Shown in pieces: positions 1 through 6,900 of a DNA stretch of 64,000 nucleotides. A program made the translations under genes and the position numbers. The DNA comes from Moheibacter lacus. Its GTDB lineage: Bacteria > Bacteroidota > Bacteroidia > Flavobacteriales > Weeksellaceae. A model generated the notes under the pieces. That model saw nothing but the letters and a program-made list of their open reading frames with translations. It did not search any database and was not told the origin of the DNA. The DNA is taken from contig NZ_JACDZE010000001.1 in the NCBI RefSeq assembly GCF_014042165.1, positions 1,200,595-1,264,594 on the forward strand. The letters are read 5' to 3'. Each line of letters opens with the position of its first letter. The first letter of the stretch is position 1.

Positions 1-1
1 A

Positions 2-376
2 TCTTCAATTGGACAATACTTTTATTATGAGTTAGGAGCTAAGTATAATGGCGGATTAAGAAAAATTAAAGAAATATTTGCAGAGCAATATAAGTATTCT
101 TCTGAAACAAAAAATCAAGATGGATACATAAGAATCAGGTTTGTTGTGAATTGTGAAGGGCAAATCGGTCGCTTCAGTATAATGGAAACGGATGATAACT
201 ACCAACCATATTTATTTGACAGAGAGATTGTGAAGAATCTTTTTTTTATTATAACAAAATATCTAAAAGATTGGACTCCAGGTGTTGTTGACAAAGATAA
301 TTCAACTCAGTTTGATTACTATAAACACCTTACTTTTAAAATAAAGGAAGGTAAATTAATAGATATATTACCATAA
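2..376 (+). CDS. TonB C-terminal-like protein, 5' end outside window
   Basis: The reading frame is open from the first complete codon of the window to the stop at 374-376, so the gene begins upstream and the ATG at 146 is only an internal methionine. The visible 124 residues resemble the TonB C-terminal fold: a strand reading IRFVVNCEGQIGRFSI, a helix, DWTPG, and a last strand LTFKIKEGKLIDIL. It is a paralogue of the protein at 4133-4651, which has the same VNC-G-I, PG and final F-KI--G-IIDI positions. TonB normally passes energy to outer-membrane receptors; here the domain occurs in a small protein next to a peptide exporter, so its role is unknown. It converges on the HlyD gene with a gap of only 13 bases. 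AT-rich. Confidence 0.7.
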   Translation, partial: SSIGQYFYYELGAKYNGGLRKIKEIFAEQYKYSSETKNQDGYIRIRFVVNCEGQIGRFSIMETDDNYQPYLFDREIVKNLFFIITKYLKDWTPGVVDKDNSTQFDYYKHLTFKIKEGKLIDILP

Positions 377-389
377 TATAGGAATTATT

Positions 390-1694
390 TTAATTTTTAA
401 AATTCTTCGTCAATAGATGTAAAAACCTTTCTGTTAATCTTAAATCATCCGTAATTATTTCCGCTGTACCTATAAGATTTTTGGGTTCAATCTCTTTTTT
501 GTAAGTTGTTTTTAATCCATTAGGTAATGAGGCCTCTACAAAATAATAGTCTTCATTTACCACTTCTGAAATAGCTTTAACTTTCCCTTGTAATACGCCA
601 AATTCCTCGTAAGGATAGTTATTGAGTTTTATGTTAACTAATTGTCCCTCCTTTACTTTACCTGAGTTATTGGTCGGCATTTTTAGAGTGACTCTGTAGG
701 TATGCTTATCCTCACTTTCATTTATAATTGATAAAAGATTGGAGTCTATGTTTATAAATTTATTTTGATATATATCATCCAGATATTGAATCTTTCCATC
801 CCTTGACGCTCGCAAGGCATAGGTATTTGCCCAATCTTCAAAAGATTTAGTCATCTCTTTTATGCTATTTGCTATATCAATATCATAATCCTGATGCGTA
901 TCTTTATCTGTTTGTTTCAATGTTTGAAGATTACTTCGAATCAGTTCTATATCTTGTTGAATTTGAAAAATTTGATTATCATACTGCTGAACCTGCCTTT
1001 GATACTGTAAATACTGGCTTTGTGAAATTTCATAATCAGCTTTGGTTACAATTCCTTTTTCAAGCATTTTCTTTTGCCTGTCCAAATTCAATTTACTGAC
1101 TTGCATTTCTTCAAACGCAATTTCCTTTTGATTTCTCAAATTAGAAATTGAACTCATCAAATTACTTATCCTTGATTGATTTATGGAAGACTGATTACCA
1201 TAGTTATTGTCAGTTGAATAGCTTCTGTACTTTTTAATCAACCGAAGAAAATTATTATATGAAGGCTGTAATTCTCCAACGTCAAGATAATTGAAGTCTA
1301 CACTAAAGACTTTATCGACATCACTAATATTTTCGTTTAGATATTTTAGTTTTTTTTCCAGTTCGAGAATATCCGGAATTGATGCCTTCGTATTTATAAT
1401 TAATAACCAATCTCCCTTTTTGACCAAAGAATTATTTTTTAGAAAAATAGAATCAATTTTACCTGTTGTCCTGGAAACCAGCTTTATAGGAGGTGCTTCC
1501 GATGTGACTTCTGCTTCACACCTAACTACGTCCGGATACTTTATAAACCATGTTAAAAAGATCAGTAATAGTAAAAAGATCAGAAAAAAAGTATTTCCCC
1601 AGGACAGTATCCAGCTAGGGGTTTTATTCAGAATATCATTTACAAAATCACTTCTTTTCCTTATATCGTAAACTTTTGAAGATTCTTCCATCAT
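390..1694 (-). CDS. HlyD family periplasmic adaptor of a peptide exporter
   Basis: A 434-residue membrane fusion protein. It has a short cytoplasmic N terminus, one membrane segment at about residues 32-50 (FFLIFLLLLIFLTWFIKY), a biotinyl-lipoyl-like half (VSRTTGKIDSIFLKNNSLVKKGD), a long helical hairpin rich in Gln, Lys and Leu at about 165-270, and a C-terminal beta-barrel part. Such proteins bridge an inner-membrane ABC exporter to the outer membrane. Its start overlaps the stop of the C39 ABC transporter by one base, so the two are translationally coupled and are almost certainly partners. A second ATG one codon later is an alternative start. No TolC-like outer-membrane protein is visible in the window. 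Confidence 0.9.
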   Translation of the reverse strand: MMEESSKVYDIRKRSDFVNDILNKTPSWILSWGNTFFLIFLLLLIFLTWFIKYPDVVRCEAEVTSEAPPIKLVSRTTGKIDSIFLKNNSLVKKGDWLLIINTKASIPDILELEKKLKYLNENISDVDKVFSVDFNYLDVGELQPSYNNFLRLIKKYRSYSTDNNYGNQSSINQSRISNLMSSISNLRNQKEIAFEEMQVSKLNLDRQKKMLEKGIVTKADYEISQSQYLQYQRQVQQYDNQIFQIQQDIELIRSNLQTLKQTDKDTHQDYDIDIANSIKEMTKSFEDWANTYALRASRDGKIQYLDDIYQNKFINIDSNLLSIINESEDKHTYRVTLKMPTNNSGKVKEGQLVNIKLNNYPYEEFGVLQGKVKAISEVVNEDYYFVEASLPNGLKTTYKKEIEPKNLIGTAEIITDDLRLTERFLHLLTKNFKN

Positions 1695-3916
1695 TATCTA
1701 CTTATTTCAAGTTGATTTTTTACGAGTGTATAGTATTTCCCTTTCTGATCAATTAGGTCTTGGTGTTTTCCTATTTCGGCTACTTCTCCTCCGTCTAAGA
1801 CAACAATCTGGTCAGCGTCCCTAACTGTACTTAATCTGTGAGCAACTATAATAACTGTTTTATTCTCATAGAATGCCTTCAGATTCTGCATTATGGTCAT
1901 TTCATTATTCGCATCCAAAGCCGATGTTGCCTCATCTAGAAATATATATTTTGGATCTTTATATATGGCTCTCGCAAGCAATATTCTTTGAGCCTGCCCT
2001 CCACTTAAACTTCTGCCACTAGAACCCGGCGGACCAATTCTTGCATTATAACCGGAAGGATGTTCTTCGATAAAATCATAAATATTGGCAATTTTAACGG
2101 CCTGCAATATTCTTTCCTCATCGTAATCTCCGAATGTATTGGATTCAGTAATATTTCGAGCAACAGTATCTGAAAATATATACCCATCCTGCATTACATT
2201 TCCACATAATTGACGCCAGGAATGTGTGTCAATCAAATTCAAGTTTACATTATCAATATAAATTCCGCCCTCTGTTGGTAAATATAATTTTAGAAGTAAT
2301 TTTAATAAAGTAGTTTTACCTCCTCCGCTCATACCCACTATAGCCGTCACTTTACCTTTGGGGATAGTTAAACTAATGTTTTTTAGAATCATAGGACTCC
2401 TATTGCCTCCATAACGAAAGGATAAATTTTCTAATCGAATATCTTGTGGTTCACTCTTGGCTCTGATAAGATCTTTCTGATTCAAAATCTTCTCTTCGTC
2501 TGTTTGAAAATCAATGTCCGTAAATCTTTCGACGCTTAAGCGGGCATCCTGTAAATCCCTTAAAAACTGAATAAAAGAGTTTAACGGAACATTAATCTGA
2601 CCAACGATGTACTGAATGGCCAACATCATACCCAATGTAATATTCCCGTCAATTACACCTTTTGCTGCTAAAAATGTTATAAGAATATTCTTTGACTCAT
2701 TTATAGTATTACCACCTATTGTTTGAAATTGAGCTAATTTCAGATTTGAAATTGATGTTTTATAAAGCCTTATTCTTATTTCCTCCCAAGACCAAATTCT
2801 TCTTAACTCTGAATTATTGACTTTTACCTCTTGTATACCATTGACGATTTGCATAAGAGAGGTGTTAGTCCCTGCATTTTCTTCAAATCTTTTATAGTCA
2901 AGCTCCTCTCTTCTTTTCATAAAATATTGCACCCACACAATATACAGGATAATGCCTGCGAGAAATACTAAGAATATAGTTGTATCATAATACAAAAGGA
3001 TGAAAAGAAAAACTATGGCATTTAAATAGGAAAAAATCGTACTCGGAGCTGTTGATATTAGTCTTTCAATACGAGAAGAGTCATTAATTCTTTGAAGAAT
3101 ATCGCCCGAAGTCTTAGAATCAAAGAAAGACAATGATTTACTTAAAAGTTTACGTAAGTAGTCGGTTGCTATTAATATACTTGCTCTTGTACCAACAAAT
3201 AACAATAACCAGCTTTGAATTAAAGAAAATATTGTACTGCTCAGAAATAAAGTAATTTGAGCTATCAGAATAACAAGAATAAAACTTAAATCCTGATTAG
3301 CGATCCCTTTATCTACTACTGCCTGCGTTAAAAAAGGAAAAGCCAATTGAATAATCGTGCCCCCTAACAATCCTAACACAATTTGAAAAATATATCTCTT
3401 GTCTTTACTTACATAAGAGCTTAACATGCTTAAACCACCTTTCCCTTTTTTATCTCCTTCTTGGTGATAAAAATCGGGAGTTGGCTCAAGCAATATTATA
3501 ATCCCTTTTTGGTTAACATCATCATCTTTTCTATTTTGCCAACGACGAATATAATCTTCATGAGAATATCTTACAAGGCCATGTAGTGAGTCTGCTACAT
3601 ATACCCATTTATTTGTAATTCTATATACAATTAAAAAATGTCGATCTCGCCAATATGTAATGCATGGCAATGGTGCTTCATTCTTTAATGTCTCAAAATC
3701 TACAAGTGCAGGTAGTGCCTGAATTCCTATTGCTTCGGCTCCCTCAACAATTCCCCTTGCGGACACACCTTCCATCGTGATACTGCAAACGGTTCTTAGC
3801 CGCTCGATATCAAAAGTCTTCCCATAATATTTTGCGATCATTCTAAGGCAGGTTGGGCCACAATCATATTGATCATGTTGTCGGTAAAAAGGAAATGCTT
3901 TTCTTTTCTTAAGCAT
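1694..3916 (-). CDS. C39 peptidase-containing ABC transporter (leader-cleaving peptide exporter)
   Basis: A 740-residue fusion of peptidase, membrane and ATPase domains. The N-terminal C39 peptidase has Cys19 in QYDCGPTCLRMIAKYYG, the His in DRHFLIVYRI and the Asp in VADSLHG. Transmembrane helices fill roughly residues 170-460. The ATPase has Walker A GMSGGGKTT, signature SLSGGQAQR and Walker B YIFLDEATSALD, so all catalytic parts look intact. The family cleaves double-glycine leaders from small peptides while exporting them. The frame stays open upstream to 4039, but the start at 3916 (MLKKRKAFPF) places the peptidase at the usual N-terminal position and lies downstream of a TACTTTTG box. 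No leader-peptide gene is visible nearby. Confidence 0.9.
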   Translation of the reverse strand: MLKKRKAFPFYRQHDQYDCGPTCLRMIAKYYGKTFDIERLRTVCSITMEGVSARGIVEGAEAIGIQALPALVDFETLKNEAPLPCITYWRDRHFLIVYRITNKWVYVADSLHGLVRYSHEDYIRRWQNRKDDDVNQKGIIILLEPTPDFYHQEGDKKGKGGLSMLSSYVSKDKRYIFQIVLGLLGGTIIQLAFPFLTQAVVDKGIANQDLSFILVILIAQITLFLSSTIFSLIQSWLLLFVGTRASILIATDYLRKLLSKSLSFFDSKTSGDILQRINDSSRIERLISTAPSTIFSYLNAIVFLFILLYYDTTIFLVFLAGIILYIVWVQYFMKRREELDYKRFEENAGTNTSLMQIVNGIQEVKVNNSELRRIWSWEEIRIRLYKTSISNLKLAQFQTIGGNTINESKNILITFLAAKGVIDGNITLGMMLAIQYIVGQINVPLNSFIQFLRDLQDARLSVERFTDIDFQTDEEKILNQKDLIRAKSEPQDIRLENLSFRYGGNRSPMILKNISLTIPKGKVTAIVGMSGGGKTTLLKLLLKLYLPTEGGIYIDNVNLNLIDTHSWRQLCGNVMQDGYIFSDTVARNITESNTFGDYDEERILQAVKIANIYDFIEEHPSGYNARIGPPGSSGRSLSGGQAQRILLARAIYKDPKYIFLDEATSALDANNEMTIMQNLKAFYENKTVIIVAHRLSTVRDADQIVVLDGGEVAEIGKHQDLIDQKGKYYTLVKNQLEISR

Positions 3917-3946
3917 AAGTAAGTTTAAGATTTGATTATATTTAAA

Positions 3947-3954
3947 CAAAAGTA
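3947..3954 (-). promoter_or_regulatory. Possible -7 box for the exporter genes
   Basis: On the minus strand this reads TACTTTTG, which fits the Bacteroidota -7 consensus TAnnTTTG, about 30 bases upstream of the 3916 start. No TTG box lies at the ideal 19-base spacing, so the call rests on one box. It sits in the divergent region between the exporter and the gene at 4133. Confidence 0.3.
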
Positions 3955-4132
3955 TTAAAAATGATCCAAAATGTGAGCTACCCAAAATCAGGACTTGAAT
4001 CATATAGAAAATGGTTTTAGCAGGTATATTTAAAAACATGAGTTTTATTATGTAATAGAAAAATCATTAAATCTGCTATATATTAGATTCAAATTATAAA
4101 AGAGTTATTCTAACAACTTATCTTAATAAATT

Positions 4133-4651
4133 ATGAAAAAAATTAAATTACTCAACGCAGTTTTTCTAGTTAGTTTATTTTTAACAATTAGTGTTAGTAT
4201 TTGGCTTTATTTCCAACTTTCAAGAGAAATAGGTAATATTTCATTTCAGAAAGAACATAGTGACAGTCCTCATTTCAGATTATGCCCAGATAATAAGATA
4301 TATCAATATTATTCGGTAAATACCTCGTTTGTTGGAGGAAGAAACGCAATTAGAGAAGAAATATATAAATTTCTAAAAGTTTTAGATGATAAAGATCATT
4401 CTTTCTCTGGTTATGTAACCACAAGATTTATAGTTAATTGTAATGGTGAAATTGATAGAATTAGAATAAAAAGTGTTAATTCTCACTTTCAAGATTATTC
4501 AATTAATGCCGCCAGCAGTAATTTAATTATTCAAGCTATTAGAAGATTAAAAAATTTCATTCCCGGACAATCTTCAAATGGACAGTCAGTAAATTCTTAT
4601 TTTCAGCTTAATTTCAAAATTGAAGCAGGCGAAATAATTGATATATTCTAA
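4133..4651 (+). CDS. Membrane-anchored TonB C-terminal-like protein
   Basis: A 172-residue protein with a Lys-rich N terminus and a hydrophobic segment at about residues 7-27 (signal anchor or signal peptide). The second half looks like a TonB C-terminal domain: TTRFIVNCNGEIDRIRIKS, a helix IIQAIRRLKNFIPG, then SYFQLNFKIEAGEIIDIF. It is a paralogue of the truncated protein at 2-376; the pair flanks the exporter genes. It probably heads a plus-strand operon with the TPR protein (16-base gap) and the aldo/keto reductase. TonB proper has a Pro-rich spacer and interacts with ExbBD; no such spacer is seen here, so energy transduction is doubtful. A role linked to the exporter is inferred from position only. 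Confidence 0.7.
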   Translation: MKKIKLLNAVFLVSLFLTISVSIWLYFQLSREIGNISFQKEHSDSPHFRLCPDNKIYQYYSVNTSFVGGRNAIREEIYKFLKVLDDKDHSFSGYVTTRFIVNCNGEIDRIRIKSVNSHFQDYSINAASSNLIIQAIRRLKNFIPGQSSNGQSVNSYFQLNFKIEAGEIIDIF

Positions 4652-4667
4652 CCCCTAAAGTTTTTTT

Positions 4668-5477
4668 ATGAAGATTTTTTTCAAAATAATAAAATTATTA
4701 TTATCAACAGTATTTTTATTTTACACAATACTCATAGCTTATTTTTTATTTTTTTCTCCAAAAGAAAAACGATTTGAAATTGGAGAGACACTTCAAGGAA
4801 CTTATTTATCTCAAACTATATTTGATATATTAATATGGCAATATCCTAATTACTCAAATGCCTATATGGAAAAATCAGTAGCTTTTAATAAACGAGGCGA
4901 ATACTCTAAGGGATTTTCTCTTCTAAACAAAGCAGTAGACATAGACCCTTCCAATCATCTTGGATATAGAGGATGGCTTCGCTTGGTGAAATTAAAGGAT
5001 TACAAAGGTGCAATTGGTGATTTAGAAAGATTAGACTCTCTTACTCCAAATTTTGAAGATTATCCTTGGGGTGAAAATATTCATTATTTATTAGGAATTT
5101 GTTATAATGGACTTGGGGATTTTAAGCGAGCAAAATATGAATATAATATCTATTTTAACTCTGAAAAGGACTCAACGTATTTGAATTCAATGGCATTTGT
5201 TTATTATGGGAATATTTTATTGGAACAAGATAGTTTAAATAAGGCTAACGATTTATTTAATATTGCAATCAAGATTGATAAATATAGAACCGAAGCCTAT
5301 TACCTCAAAGGAATATATTATAAAAAAATCAACGAATTAGATTCTTCCAATATTAATTTAAAAAAAGCATTAAAACTTTATGATGATGGTTATAAGAATC
5401 AAGATTCCTATAATGAGGTTTTTCAAGAAATTTACAGAAACGATATAGAAATTGAAATTTTAAATTTATCGGAATAA
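4668..5477 (+). CDS. Tetratricopeptide repeat protein with N-terminal membrane anchor
   Basis: A 269-residue protein with a hydrophobic N-terminal segment (about residues 8-28), then at least four TPR-like helical pairs: around NAYMEKSVAFNKRGEYSKGF, the following HLGYRGWLRLVKLKDYKGAI, HYLLGICYNGLGDFKRAKYE, and TEAYYLKGIYYKKINELDSS. TPRs are protein-protein interaction scaffolds. It lies 16 bases after the TonB-C-like gene and 41 bases before the aldo/keto reductase, on the same strand. DNA is very AT-rich: the selected line 4681-4740 has 10 G+C of 60. Its binding partner is unknown. Confidence 0.75.
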   Translation: MKIFFKIIKLLLSTVFLFYTILIAYFLFFSPKEKRFEIGETLQGTYLSQTIFDILIWQYPNYSNAYMEKSVAFNKRGEYSKGFSLLNKAVDIDPSNHLGYRGWLRLVKLKDYKGAIGDLERLDSLTPNFEDYPWGENIHYLLGICYNGLGDFKRAKYEYNIYFNSEKDSTYLNSMAFVYYGNILLEQDSLNKANDLFNIAIKIDKYRTEAYYLKGIYYKKINELDSSNINLKKALKLYDDGYKNQDSYNEVFQEIYRNDIEIEILNLSE

Positions 5478-5518
5478 CTACTATATATGGATTCAGAATT
5501 AATTTAATAAACTAACAC

Positions 5519-6733
5519 ATGATAAATTTAGAAAATCTCTCTAAGATTGGGATTGGGACTTACAGAATGTCAATTGAGAATAATAATCACAGAGAAGCTT
5601 TAGAGTACGCTATAGATAATGGAATAAATTTAATCGACACAGCTTCAAACTATCAAAATGGGAATTCAGAAAAACTTATCGGAAAACTTATTGATAGCTC
5701 CCTTCGTGAAAATGTCTTTATTATTACAAAGGCAGGATATATTCAAGGCGATGATATTAATAAACTATCATCAATAAATAAAAACAAAATAGTTCACATT
5801 AATGAACGATTTTATTATTCGATAGACAAATCATTTATAGAGCTTCAAATCAAGCAGTCTTTGGAAAGAATAAATACGGAGTATATTGATTGCTTCTTAA
5901 TTCATAATCCTGAACATTATTTTGATGTGCCCAATGAGATTCAAAAGGATATTGATCAGCATATCATTGAGACTTTTCAATATTTAGAAGGATTGGTTAA
6001 TACCGGAATAATTAGGTATTATGGGATTAGTTCAAATCATTTACCTGATCCTTCTTTAAAGAATTTTGGATTTGAAAACCTATTGAAACTGAGAAACCAA
6101 TTTCCTCATTTTAAGATCGTTCAGTTCCCGTTTAATCTTGTTGAGTCAAATGCCTCATTAAAATTGTATAACTCAAATTCGTTAATTGATGTTTGCAAAC
6201 AGTATGATATAAAATGTATCTCAAATCGTCCGTTTAATACAATTTATGAAGGAAAAACTTTACAATTGATAGATCATTCCTTTGAGCTTAACAATATTAA
6301 TGAAGAGAAGGAAATCGAACTCTTCCATAAAATGCTTAATCTTGTGCAAAATAGATTACATGAAATAGGGGAAAATACTCCTATTGAAGAATTTACCCCT
6401 ATTAAATATTTGATTAAAAATAGAAAATTAATAGCAAATGAAGCTGCATTAAATGAAGTTATTAGAAGGTATTTATTTCCTTTTCTGAACCAAATTGAAT
6501 TGGCAGATGAGAATACTTTTAAAATAATTTCTCTATTGCAGAATGAATGGAGATTATTCATCAAACAGAACAACAAATTAAGGCTAACAAGCCTAAAAGA
6601 AAAAATGGGTATAAATGAAAACGAAGATTTAATGAAATATTTATATGACCTATACTTAACTCAAGGAGTTGATCATGTACTTATGGGATTGAGAAATAAA
6701 AAATATGTTGATAATATACTTCACTTATTATAA
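5519..6733 (+). CDS. Aldo/keto reductase, long form (404 aa)
   Basis: The N-terminal 270 residues form an aldo/keto reductase barrel with the catalytic tetrad in place: Asp40 and Tyr45 (LIDTASNYQNG), Lys71 (FIITKAGY) and His129 (CFLIHNPEHY). These enzymes reduce carbonyls with NADPH. The family is usually about 300-340 residues; here an extra helical stretch of about 100 residues (roughly 265-370) precedes the C-terminal GVDHVLMGLRNKKYVDNIL, the usual cofactor-side end of the barrel. It is the last gene of the plus-strand group beside a peptide exporter, so a tailoring role on the exported peptide is possible but unproven. A stand-alone metabolic enzyme is the alternative. Confidence 0.8.
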   Translation: MINLENLSKIGIGTYRMSIENNNHREALEYAIDNGINLIDTASNYQNGNSEKLIGKLIDSSLRENVFIITKAGYIQGDDINKLSSINKNKIVHINERFYYSIDKSFIELQIKQSLERINTEYIDCFLIHNPEHYFDVPNEIQKDIDQHIIETFQYLEGLVNTGIIRYYGISSNHLPDPSLKNFGFENLLKLRNQFPHFKIVQFPFNLVESNASLKLYNSNSLIDVCKQYDIKCISNRPFNTIYEGKTLQLIDHSFELNNINEEKEIELFHKMLNLVQNRLHEIGENTPIEEFTPIKYLIKNRKLIANEAALNEVIRRYLFPFLNQIELADENTFKIISLLQNEWRLFIKQNNKLRLTSLKEKMGINENEDLMKYLYDLYLTQGVDHVLMGLRNKKYVDNILHLL

Positions 6734-6814: not shown

Positions 6815-6816
6815 TG

Positions 6817-6900
6817 TACCCGAGGCCGGAATCGAACCGGCACGTCCTTGCGAACACAGGATTTTGAATCCAGCGCGTCTACCAGTTCCGCCACTCGGGC
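6817..6900 (-). tRNA. tRNA-Leu (anticodon CAA)
   Basis: On the minus strand the sequence folds as a class II tRNA: acceptor GCCCGAG pairing with CTCGGGT, D-arm containing GGTAGACGC, anticodon loop TTCAAAA (anticodon CAA), long variable arm GTTC-GCAA-GGAC, T-arm CCGGTTCGATTCCGG, discriminator A. CCA is not encoded. The first acceptor pair is G-U and the second pair of the anticodon stem (CTGGA/TCCTG) appears to be a T-T mismatch. The 3' end faces the AT-rich accessory block, with only the terminator between. Confidence 0.95.

Follow-up and report, generated by a model that had tools for sequence, protein, structure and literature searches.

The residues that characterized alpha-ketoglutarate (aKG)-HExxH proteins hydroxylate in the precursors of ribosomally synthesized and post-translationally modified peptides (RiPPs) are His, Asp, Phe, Gln or Pro, and one of these proteins also cleaves the backbone (PMC13060819, PMC12636437). 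Among methyltransferases acting on imidazole, the carnosine N-methyltransferase CARNMT1 holds the imidazole with Asp316 (PMC6400499) and methylates histidines in proteins as well (PMC12275196). A double-glycine (GG) leader combined with a C39 exporter has been reported for the bacteroidetocins, in a Bacteroidales RiPP paper whose text contains no HExxH or hydroxylase (PMC10352776). Here we describe a gene cluster of Moheibacter lacus (genome 2.77 Mb) that combines features of all three. It straddles the left edge of a stretch of 64,000 nucleotides, hereafter the window (C1:1200595-1264594). We consider it likely that the cluster belongs to an undescribed RiPP family in which a Cys-His pair of the core is oxidized and, in the type found here, also methylated on histidine, before cleavage by a C39 peptidase at GG and export. 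No paper describing the cluster was found in the open-licence literature, which leaves out most subscription journals.

Results

The precursor family

A first-pass annotation of the window had proposed a locus for peptide export and possibly peptide modification whose leader-bearing precursor lies to the left, and had suggested searching there for small genes with a GG or GA site. The precursor, the exporter and the enzymes described below support this proposal. We retrieved 40 kb to the left of the window; positions there are given as negative numbers, counting bases left of window base 1. The cluster contains the following genes.

-6261..-4969, minus strand, TolC
-4953..-3958, minus strand, methyltransferase MT2
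-3952..-3263, minus strand, methyltransferase MT1
-3085..-2930, minus strand, precursor gene
-2822..-1656, plus strand, HQxxH protein, 388 residues
-1651..-827, plus strand, TPR protein, probable lipoprotein
-815..-657, plus strand, degenerate HQxxH fragment
-703..376, plus strand, TonB-C-like protein 1, 359 residues; the part within the window, 1..376, encodes the C-terminal portion
390..1694, minus strand, HlyD-family adaptor, 434 residues (Pfam HlyD_3, 3.5e-10)
1694..4039, minus strand, C39 peptidase-ABC exporter, up to 781 residues (Pfam Peptidase_C39, 1e-27; ABC_membrane; ABC_tran)
4133..4651, plus strand, TonB-C-like protein 2, 172 residues, single long N-terminal helix (structure model, fold match)
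4668..5477, plus strand, TPR protein (TPRa), partner of the TonB-C-like gene (Pfam TPR; the pairing is seen again in other genomes)
5519..6733, plus strand, aldo/keto reductase, 404 residues (Pfam Aldo_ket_red, 9.1e-35)

Listing the intergenic open reading frames (ORFs) revealed, in the gap separating MT1 from the divergent HQxxH gene, a 51-residue precursor with a double-glycine leader; it lies ~2.9-3.1 kb to the left of base 1. Its sequence is MKKLSLEEFKNSFVDESSNELEKLTGG followed, after the predicted cleavage site, by ILGDCHDKMPRRIWDAKNQVWIYT; the leader runs MKKLSLEEF...LEKLTGG. Loci of relatives were found with the 388-residue HQxxH protein as query, and their precursors were located in the same way. 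Scanning 84,980 species yielded 35 loci that carry organism names, including Chryseobacterium, Flavobacterium, Aquimarina, Croceitalea, Cellulophaga, Tenacibaculum, Saprospiraceae and Chitinophaga; two are metagenome bins labelled Gammaproteobacteria or Proteobacteria. After removal of duplicates, 38 distinct loci remained, the window's included, most of them from Bacteroidota. A precursor with GG leader and CH is present in 35 of these 38 and a C39 gene in 33, counts that cover the retrieved DNA only, the loci without them including truncated contigs. The absence of a leader gene from related genomes, which the annotation had named as telling against its proposal, is thus not what we observe.

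The alignment of 49 precursors has just four invariant positions, G26, G27, C32 and H33. The leader is conserved, exactly four residues separate GG from CH in 48 of the 49, and the sequence after CH varies freely, giving a tail that is hypervariable in both length and sequence. Among 6921 small ORFs from the retrieved loci (overlapping loci counted), 72 show the pattern GG-x4-CH, compared with one after shuffling. Neither Pfam nor NCBIfam holds a model for these precursors, and no credible family match was obtained from them. In 396 genomes of the order, a precursor profile identified eight genomes, including all seven with the HQxxH gene. Two marks of a RiPP cluster are present: a small precursor with conserved leader and distinct core, and adjacent genes for modifying enzymes, the latter assigned by homology only.

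The eighth precursor-bearing genome, and a second copy in another, carry orphan GG-x4-CH precursors with no HQxxH partner nearby (L075 12321-12497, L077 9506-9736), and one of the seven HQxxH genomes holds a decayed cluster with HQxxH and HlyD fragments (L076 9462-10824). Two tandem pairs of precursor and HQxxH genes are found at L048 1419-4798; one of these precursors has GG-x5-CH, the sole exception to the spacing. In Flavobacterium soyae (L026 12122-19577, also L040), a cluster of the type without methyltransferases (type B, see below) stands beside LanB-looking genes and a second GG precursor, IIKGG followed by KAPGDDTIDGTGNKGGHSSGDC, which suggests a neighbouring class I lanthipeptide-like system.

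The HQxxH protein

The gene for the HQxxH protein is present in all 38 distinct loci. The motif reads HQCGH in the protein encoded beside the window; among 39 homologues His244 and His248 are invariant, His287 is found in 38 and Arg320 in 37, and the residue following His244 is Gln in 33 and Glu in six. The three histidines are likely metal ligands, and Arg320 is a candidate 2-oxoglutarate binder. The protein itself gave no match to TIGR04267 at E 0.1; four of 36 relatives matched this model weakly (best 4.9e-6), and a profile of the HQxxH family returned only noise from the sequences in the PDB. An AlphaFold2 model built from the 36 relatives (pLDDT 89.5, pTM 0.90) matched SjiH (22ob) with Z 25.2 over 343 residues and the HExxH domain of ChlB (8s5f), an aKG-dependent oxygenase, with Z 22.6 over 278 residues (3.0 Å), the next match having Z 6.3. 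Foldseek gave E 2.6e-9 for the model against 8s5f. The literature search returned nothing relevant on SjiH. Since both the literal HExxH motif and the family model fail for this protein, we do not file it under TIGR04267 but as a divergent relative with the same fold. On plasmids, one weak relative was seen, in Pantoea, where it is annotated as an HEXXH motif-containing putative peptide modification protein.

Methyltransferases and aldo/keto reductase

Two cluster types can be distinguished. Type A, to which the window's cluster belongs, comprises 12 loci with MT1 and MT2, most of them also with the aldo/keto reductase; type B has no methyltransferases. Croceitalea dokdonensis and Chryseobacterium sp. 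MYb7 are among the strains of type A. The core begins with [IV][LM]G[ADT]CH in 21 of 22 type A precursors versus none of 27 from type B, a link for which the Fisher value ignores shared descent.

MT2 is related in sequence to CARNMT1 and to OvoM, both imidazole methylases, and CARNMT1 Asp316 aligns with an aspartate kept in all 12 MT2 homologues. From this kinship, the retained aspartate and the action of CARNMT1 on protein histidines, we propose that MT2 methylates His6 of the core. MT1 resembles CmoA and may or may not share its function, CmoA Arg199 aligning with Thr and an Arg following one residue later. The aldo/keto reductase has IolS (1pyf) as its closest PDB entry and is nearest to IolS-type enzymes; its tetrad D40/Y45/K71/H129 is unchanged in 11 of 11 homologues. 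No maturase of the radical SAM or ATP-grasp kind, which the first-pass annotation had suggested looking for, turned up among the island genes searched, and the likely maturases are instead the protein of aKG-HExxH fold and the two methyltransferases.

Exporter

The genes of the exporter and its HlyD partner share base 1694, the one-base overlap already noted in the annotation. The C39 domain has its catalytic Cys60 within DCGPTC, a candidate His in RDRHF and a candidate Asp in VADS; no second match covering the domain was found elsewhere in the genome. The exporter displays what defines a peptidase-containing ABC transporter (PCAT): a C39 domain with catalytic Cys, ABC membrane and ATPase domains, and a GG-leader substrate encoded nearby, the precursor (LEKLTGG before the cleavage site) lying ~7 kb from the start of the exporter gene.

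Proposed pathway

In the pathway we envisage, the 51-residue precursor would be made and its leader recognized by the HQxxH protein, by its fold a non-haem iron 2-oxoglutarate oxygenase. This enzyme would oxidize the core at or beside the invariant Cys5-His6, a reaction suggested by fold and co-occurrence. In type A clusters, MT2 would then act like its relatives CARNMT1 and OvoM and methylate His6 at the pi nitrogen, and MT1 and the aldo/keto reductase, from their association with ILGACH, may carry out a further methyl transfer and a redox step around this motif. Finally, as is standard for the exporter family, C39 would cut after Gly-Gly and the ABC exporter, HlyD and TolC would send the peptide out. 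The product would combine a modified head that stays constant (xxxxCH) with a tail that varies, and its most likely use would be competition with other bacteria or signalling.

The cluster is carried by a mobile island

The cassette in the window, the export half of the proposed RiPP cluster, is the right-hand end of a 22.7-kb mobile island. The annotation had recognized the right gene set, with TonB-C-like genes on both sides of the exporter, the TPR gene and a reductase with complete tetrad all present, and had rightly described it as low in GC: at 27-34% versus ~35-43% elsewhere in the window it is the lowest-GC part. Only the extent it gave to the unit was incomplete, as the unit runs ~16 kb further left and ends at a tRNA-Leu (6816-6830). 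The remaining features of the island are as follows.

-15898..-15884, attL core, adjoining the tyrosine integrase
-15711..-14488, plus strand, tyrosine integrase
between -13159 and -8997, plus strand, helix-turn-helix protein, DUF5906/VapE, Toprim primase and a 389-residue protein
-8839..-7616, minus strand, Cas12f/TnpB-like protein
-7743..-6928, minus strand, sigma factor
6816..6830, attR core GTACCCGAGGCCGGA, right end of the 22.7-kb element, exact repeat of the integrase-side site
6816..6900, minus strand, tRNA-Leu(CAA), integration target (ARAGORN)

The 15-bp exact word GTACCCGAGGCCGGA is common to tRNA-Leu(CAA) and a site 22.7 kb to the left, directly beside the tyrosine integrase. Three congeneric genomes have the empty site, with the same tRNA-Leu and downstream genes and a different sequence at the 3' end of the tRNA. 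The att repeat by the integrase and the empty congener sites therefore identify the cluster as cargo of an integrated element of ~22.7 kb; integrase, att repeats, and occupied and empty sites, the hallmarks of an integrative element, are all found. The VapE-like and Toprim primase genes fit an integrative mobilizable element. The relaxase candidate, the 389-residue protein, gave no Pfam match. A further type A cluster, from a different genome of the order (L024 3097-18833), has on its flanks a MobA relaxase, a Toprim primase and a tyrosine integrase other than that of the island, and so provides independent evidence for carriage of this cluster type by mobilizable elements.

The TonB-C-like/TPR module

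Pfam gave no TonB match for the TonB-C-like proteins. A model of the 172-residue protein (pLDDT 89.8) found TonB C-terminal domains as its best fold matches, with a moderate Z of up to 7.2 and a Foldseek E of 0.07. The gene occurs in 59 of 396 genomes of the order, compared with seven of 396 for the HQxxH gene, and 25 of 30 retrieved TonB-C loci have no C39, HlyD or HQxxH gene within the ~1.5 kb of flank examined. The annotation had tied the TonB-C-like pair to C39 exporters, and homologues lying mostly away from them were the second of two observations that it had named as grounds for doubt. This is what we find; we reject the pair as an exporter marker, and the observation removes nothing else. 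Nearly all retrieved TonB-C-like genes adjoin a TPR gene (L113-L140), and this two-gene module is widespread in Flavobacteriales; its neighbours in some genomes appear to be a miaB gene and a sigma-54 regulator. The island holds the pair twice, beside the degenerate second HQxxH fragment, which points to a duplication within the cluster. A role of these genes in immunity or uptake is possible.

The sigma factor/Cas12f-like pair

The Cas12f/TnpB-like and sigma-factor genes of the island overlap on the minus strand (-8839 to -6928, equal to L003 11156-13067). The Cas12f/TnpB-like protein, inspected by eye, is without the RuvC Asp/Glu residues and terminates at the TNB domain. We take the pair to resemble the RNA-guided sigma/dCas12f activators of Flavobacteria, on which no paper was found in the open-licence literature. 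A word of 12-13 nucleotides, (C)GGCGTGGGCTCT, lies just downstream of the Cas12f-like gene and is a possible guide; it is found again upstream of the sigma gene, and the 12-mer form also at two chromosomal sites. Three copies of an element of ~110-140 nucleotides without an Rfam family were found in the whole genome (83-84% identity), all on the minus strand: one lies upstream of the island sigma gene, and each of the other two precedes a large gene for a SusC-like receptor.

C1:846717-846850 (L147), minus strand, element copy
C8:111282-111397 (L148), minus strand, element copy
L003 13120-13300, minus strand, element copy

These positions led to the testable idea that the sigma/Cas12f pair autoregulates and controls susC.

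Discussion

Several points weigh against a modified Cys-His peptide as the product. The pathway is predicted from genes, co-occurrence and fold. The HQxxH protein has no TIGR04267 match of its own and, like 33 of the 39 homologues, Gln where the named family has Glu; its likeness to 8s5f and 22ob covers the overall fold. The link between ILGACH and the methyltransferases partly reflects shared ancestry, and the MT1 equivalent of CmoA Arg199 is ambiguous. CH is also kept in loci without MT2 and the reductase, so methylation cannot be the sole reason for it. No immunity gene was identified in the cluster.

One alternative explanation concerns the use of the product and is compatible with the proposed chemistry. 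The peptide might be a secreted metal binder whose modified Cys-His chelates copper, iron or zinc, with the TonB-C-like and TPR proteins acting in uptake or sensing. A thiol next to an imidazole, both invariant and close to the N terminus of the mature peptide, would suit such a role, TonB C-terminal domain-like proteins are encoded in the cluster, and bufferins, RiPPs modified by another iron enzyme family, are reported to chelate copper (PMC12452194). We nevertheless regard it as unlikely: the hypervariability of the tail, in residues as well as length, is better explained by diversifying selection than by a role as metal carrier, the gene list of the island showed no TonB-dependent receptor, and the TonB-C/TPR pair is common elsewhere.

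It is likewise doubtful that the HQxxH protein, instead of being an oxygenase, trims the precursor as a peptidase or escorts it as an inactive scaffold, with the same zincin-like fold in either case. HQxxH does replace HExxH in 33 of 39 homologues, and one aKG-HExxH enzyme, PflC, is proteolytic without a leader (PMC12636437). Zincin peptidases, however, match the model with Z 6.3 at most, against Z 22-25 for 8s5f and 22ob. Zinc peptidases with an HExxH-type motif need the Glu as base. Both His, a third His, a Thr and an Arg are kept here, which argues for a working non-protease metal site. That the product is an essentially unmodified double-glycine bacteriocin of bacteroidetocin or class II type, with the HQxxH protein, methyltransferases and reductase serving otherwise and CH kept for C39 or target recognition, is quite improbable: GG leaders and C39 exporters do accompany unmodified bacteriocins as well, as reported for bacteroidetocins, and CH is retained where MT2 and the reductase are absent, but an HQxxH protein of peptide-oxygenase fold adjoins nearly every precursor, C39 proteases read the leader, and we know of no C39 requirement for a fixed CH just past the cleavage site.

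We thus favour a peptide oxidized at Cys-His. A more specific form of this proposal, to which we give little weight, is a RiPP class defined by an oxidative reaction in which the HQxxH iron protein joins or alters the side chains of the neighbouring Cys and His, followed by N-pi-methylation by MT2 and adjustment by the reductase, with a constant head and a variable tail; one example of such chemistry would be a thioether linking the imidazole to the sulfur of Cys, an ovothiol-like unit within a peptide.

An oxygenase-fold protein (usually with Gln for Glu), a histidine-methyltransferase-like enzyme and a reductase offer a defined position, Cys5-His6, at which new peptide chemistry can be tested. 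A precursor family outside Pfam and NCBIfam with so simple a signature (GG leader, GG-x4-CH, variable tail) makes further members in Bacteroidota easy to find, and the constant head with a variable tail is attractive for engineering. Carriage on a mobile island would explain the patchy spread of the cluster (~1-2% of genomes sampled).

Compared with tRNA-targeting integrative (mobilizable) elements of Bacteroidota, the island shares an integrase beside attL, a core in the tRNA 3' end, a Toprim primase and VapE-like proteins, and differs in its cargo, a RiPP-type cluster and a sigma/Cas12f-like pair. With CARNMT1 and OvoM, histidine N-pi-methyltransferases, MT2 shares sequence relation and the imidazole-holding Asp316; unlike them it is a cluster enzyme with a putative peptide substrate, its proposed target His following Cys in a fixed dipeptide. 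PCAT/C39 systems with double-glycine peptides (colicin V type, bacteroidetocins) likewise have a C39-ABC exporter, HlyD, TolC and a GG leader, whereas here tailoring enzymes surround these genes and the core start is fixed as GG-x4-CH. The aKG-HExxH hydroxylases (ChlB 8s5f, BpmH, PflC/PosC, PesO; TIGR04267/IPR026337) have in common with the HQxxH protein the overall fold, His-x-x-x-His and an adjacent leader-bearing precursor; most members here differ in having HQxxH, identity is 12-13% and the family-model match weak at most. In contrast to the clusters of these hydroxylases, no radical SAM or MNIO was seen here and the precursor family is absent from the libraries tested, while C39 and HlyD are partners and type A adds a histidine-methyltransferase-like protein and an aldo/keto reductase. 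By analogy, the cluster appears to work like an aKG-HExxH RiPP pathway with C39 export.

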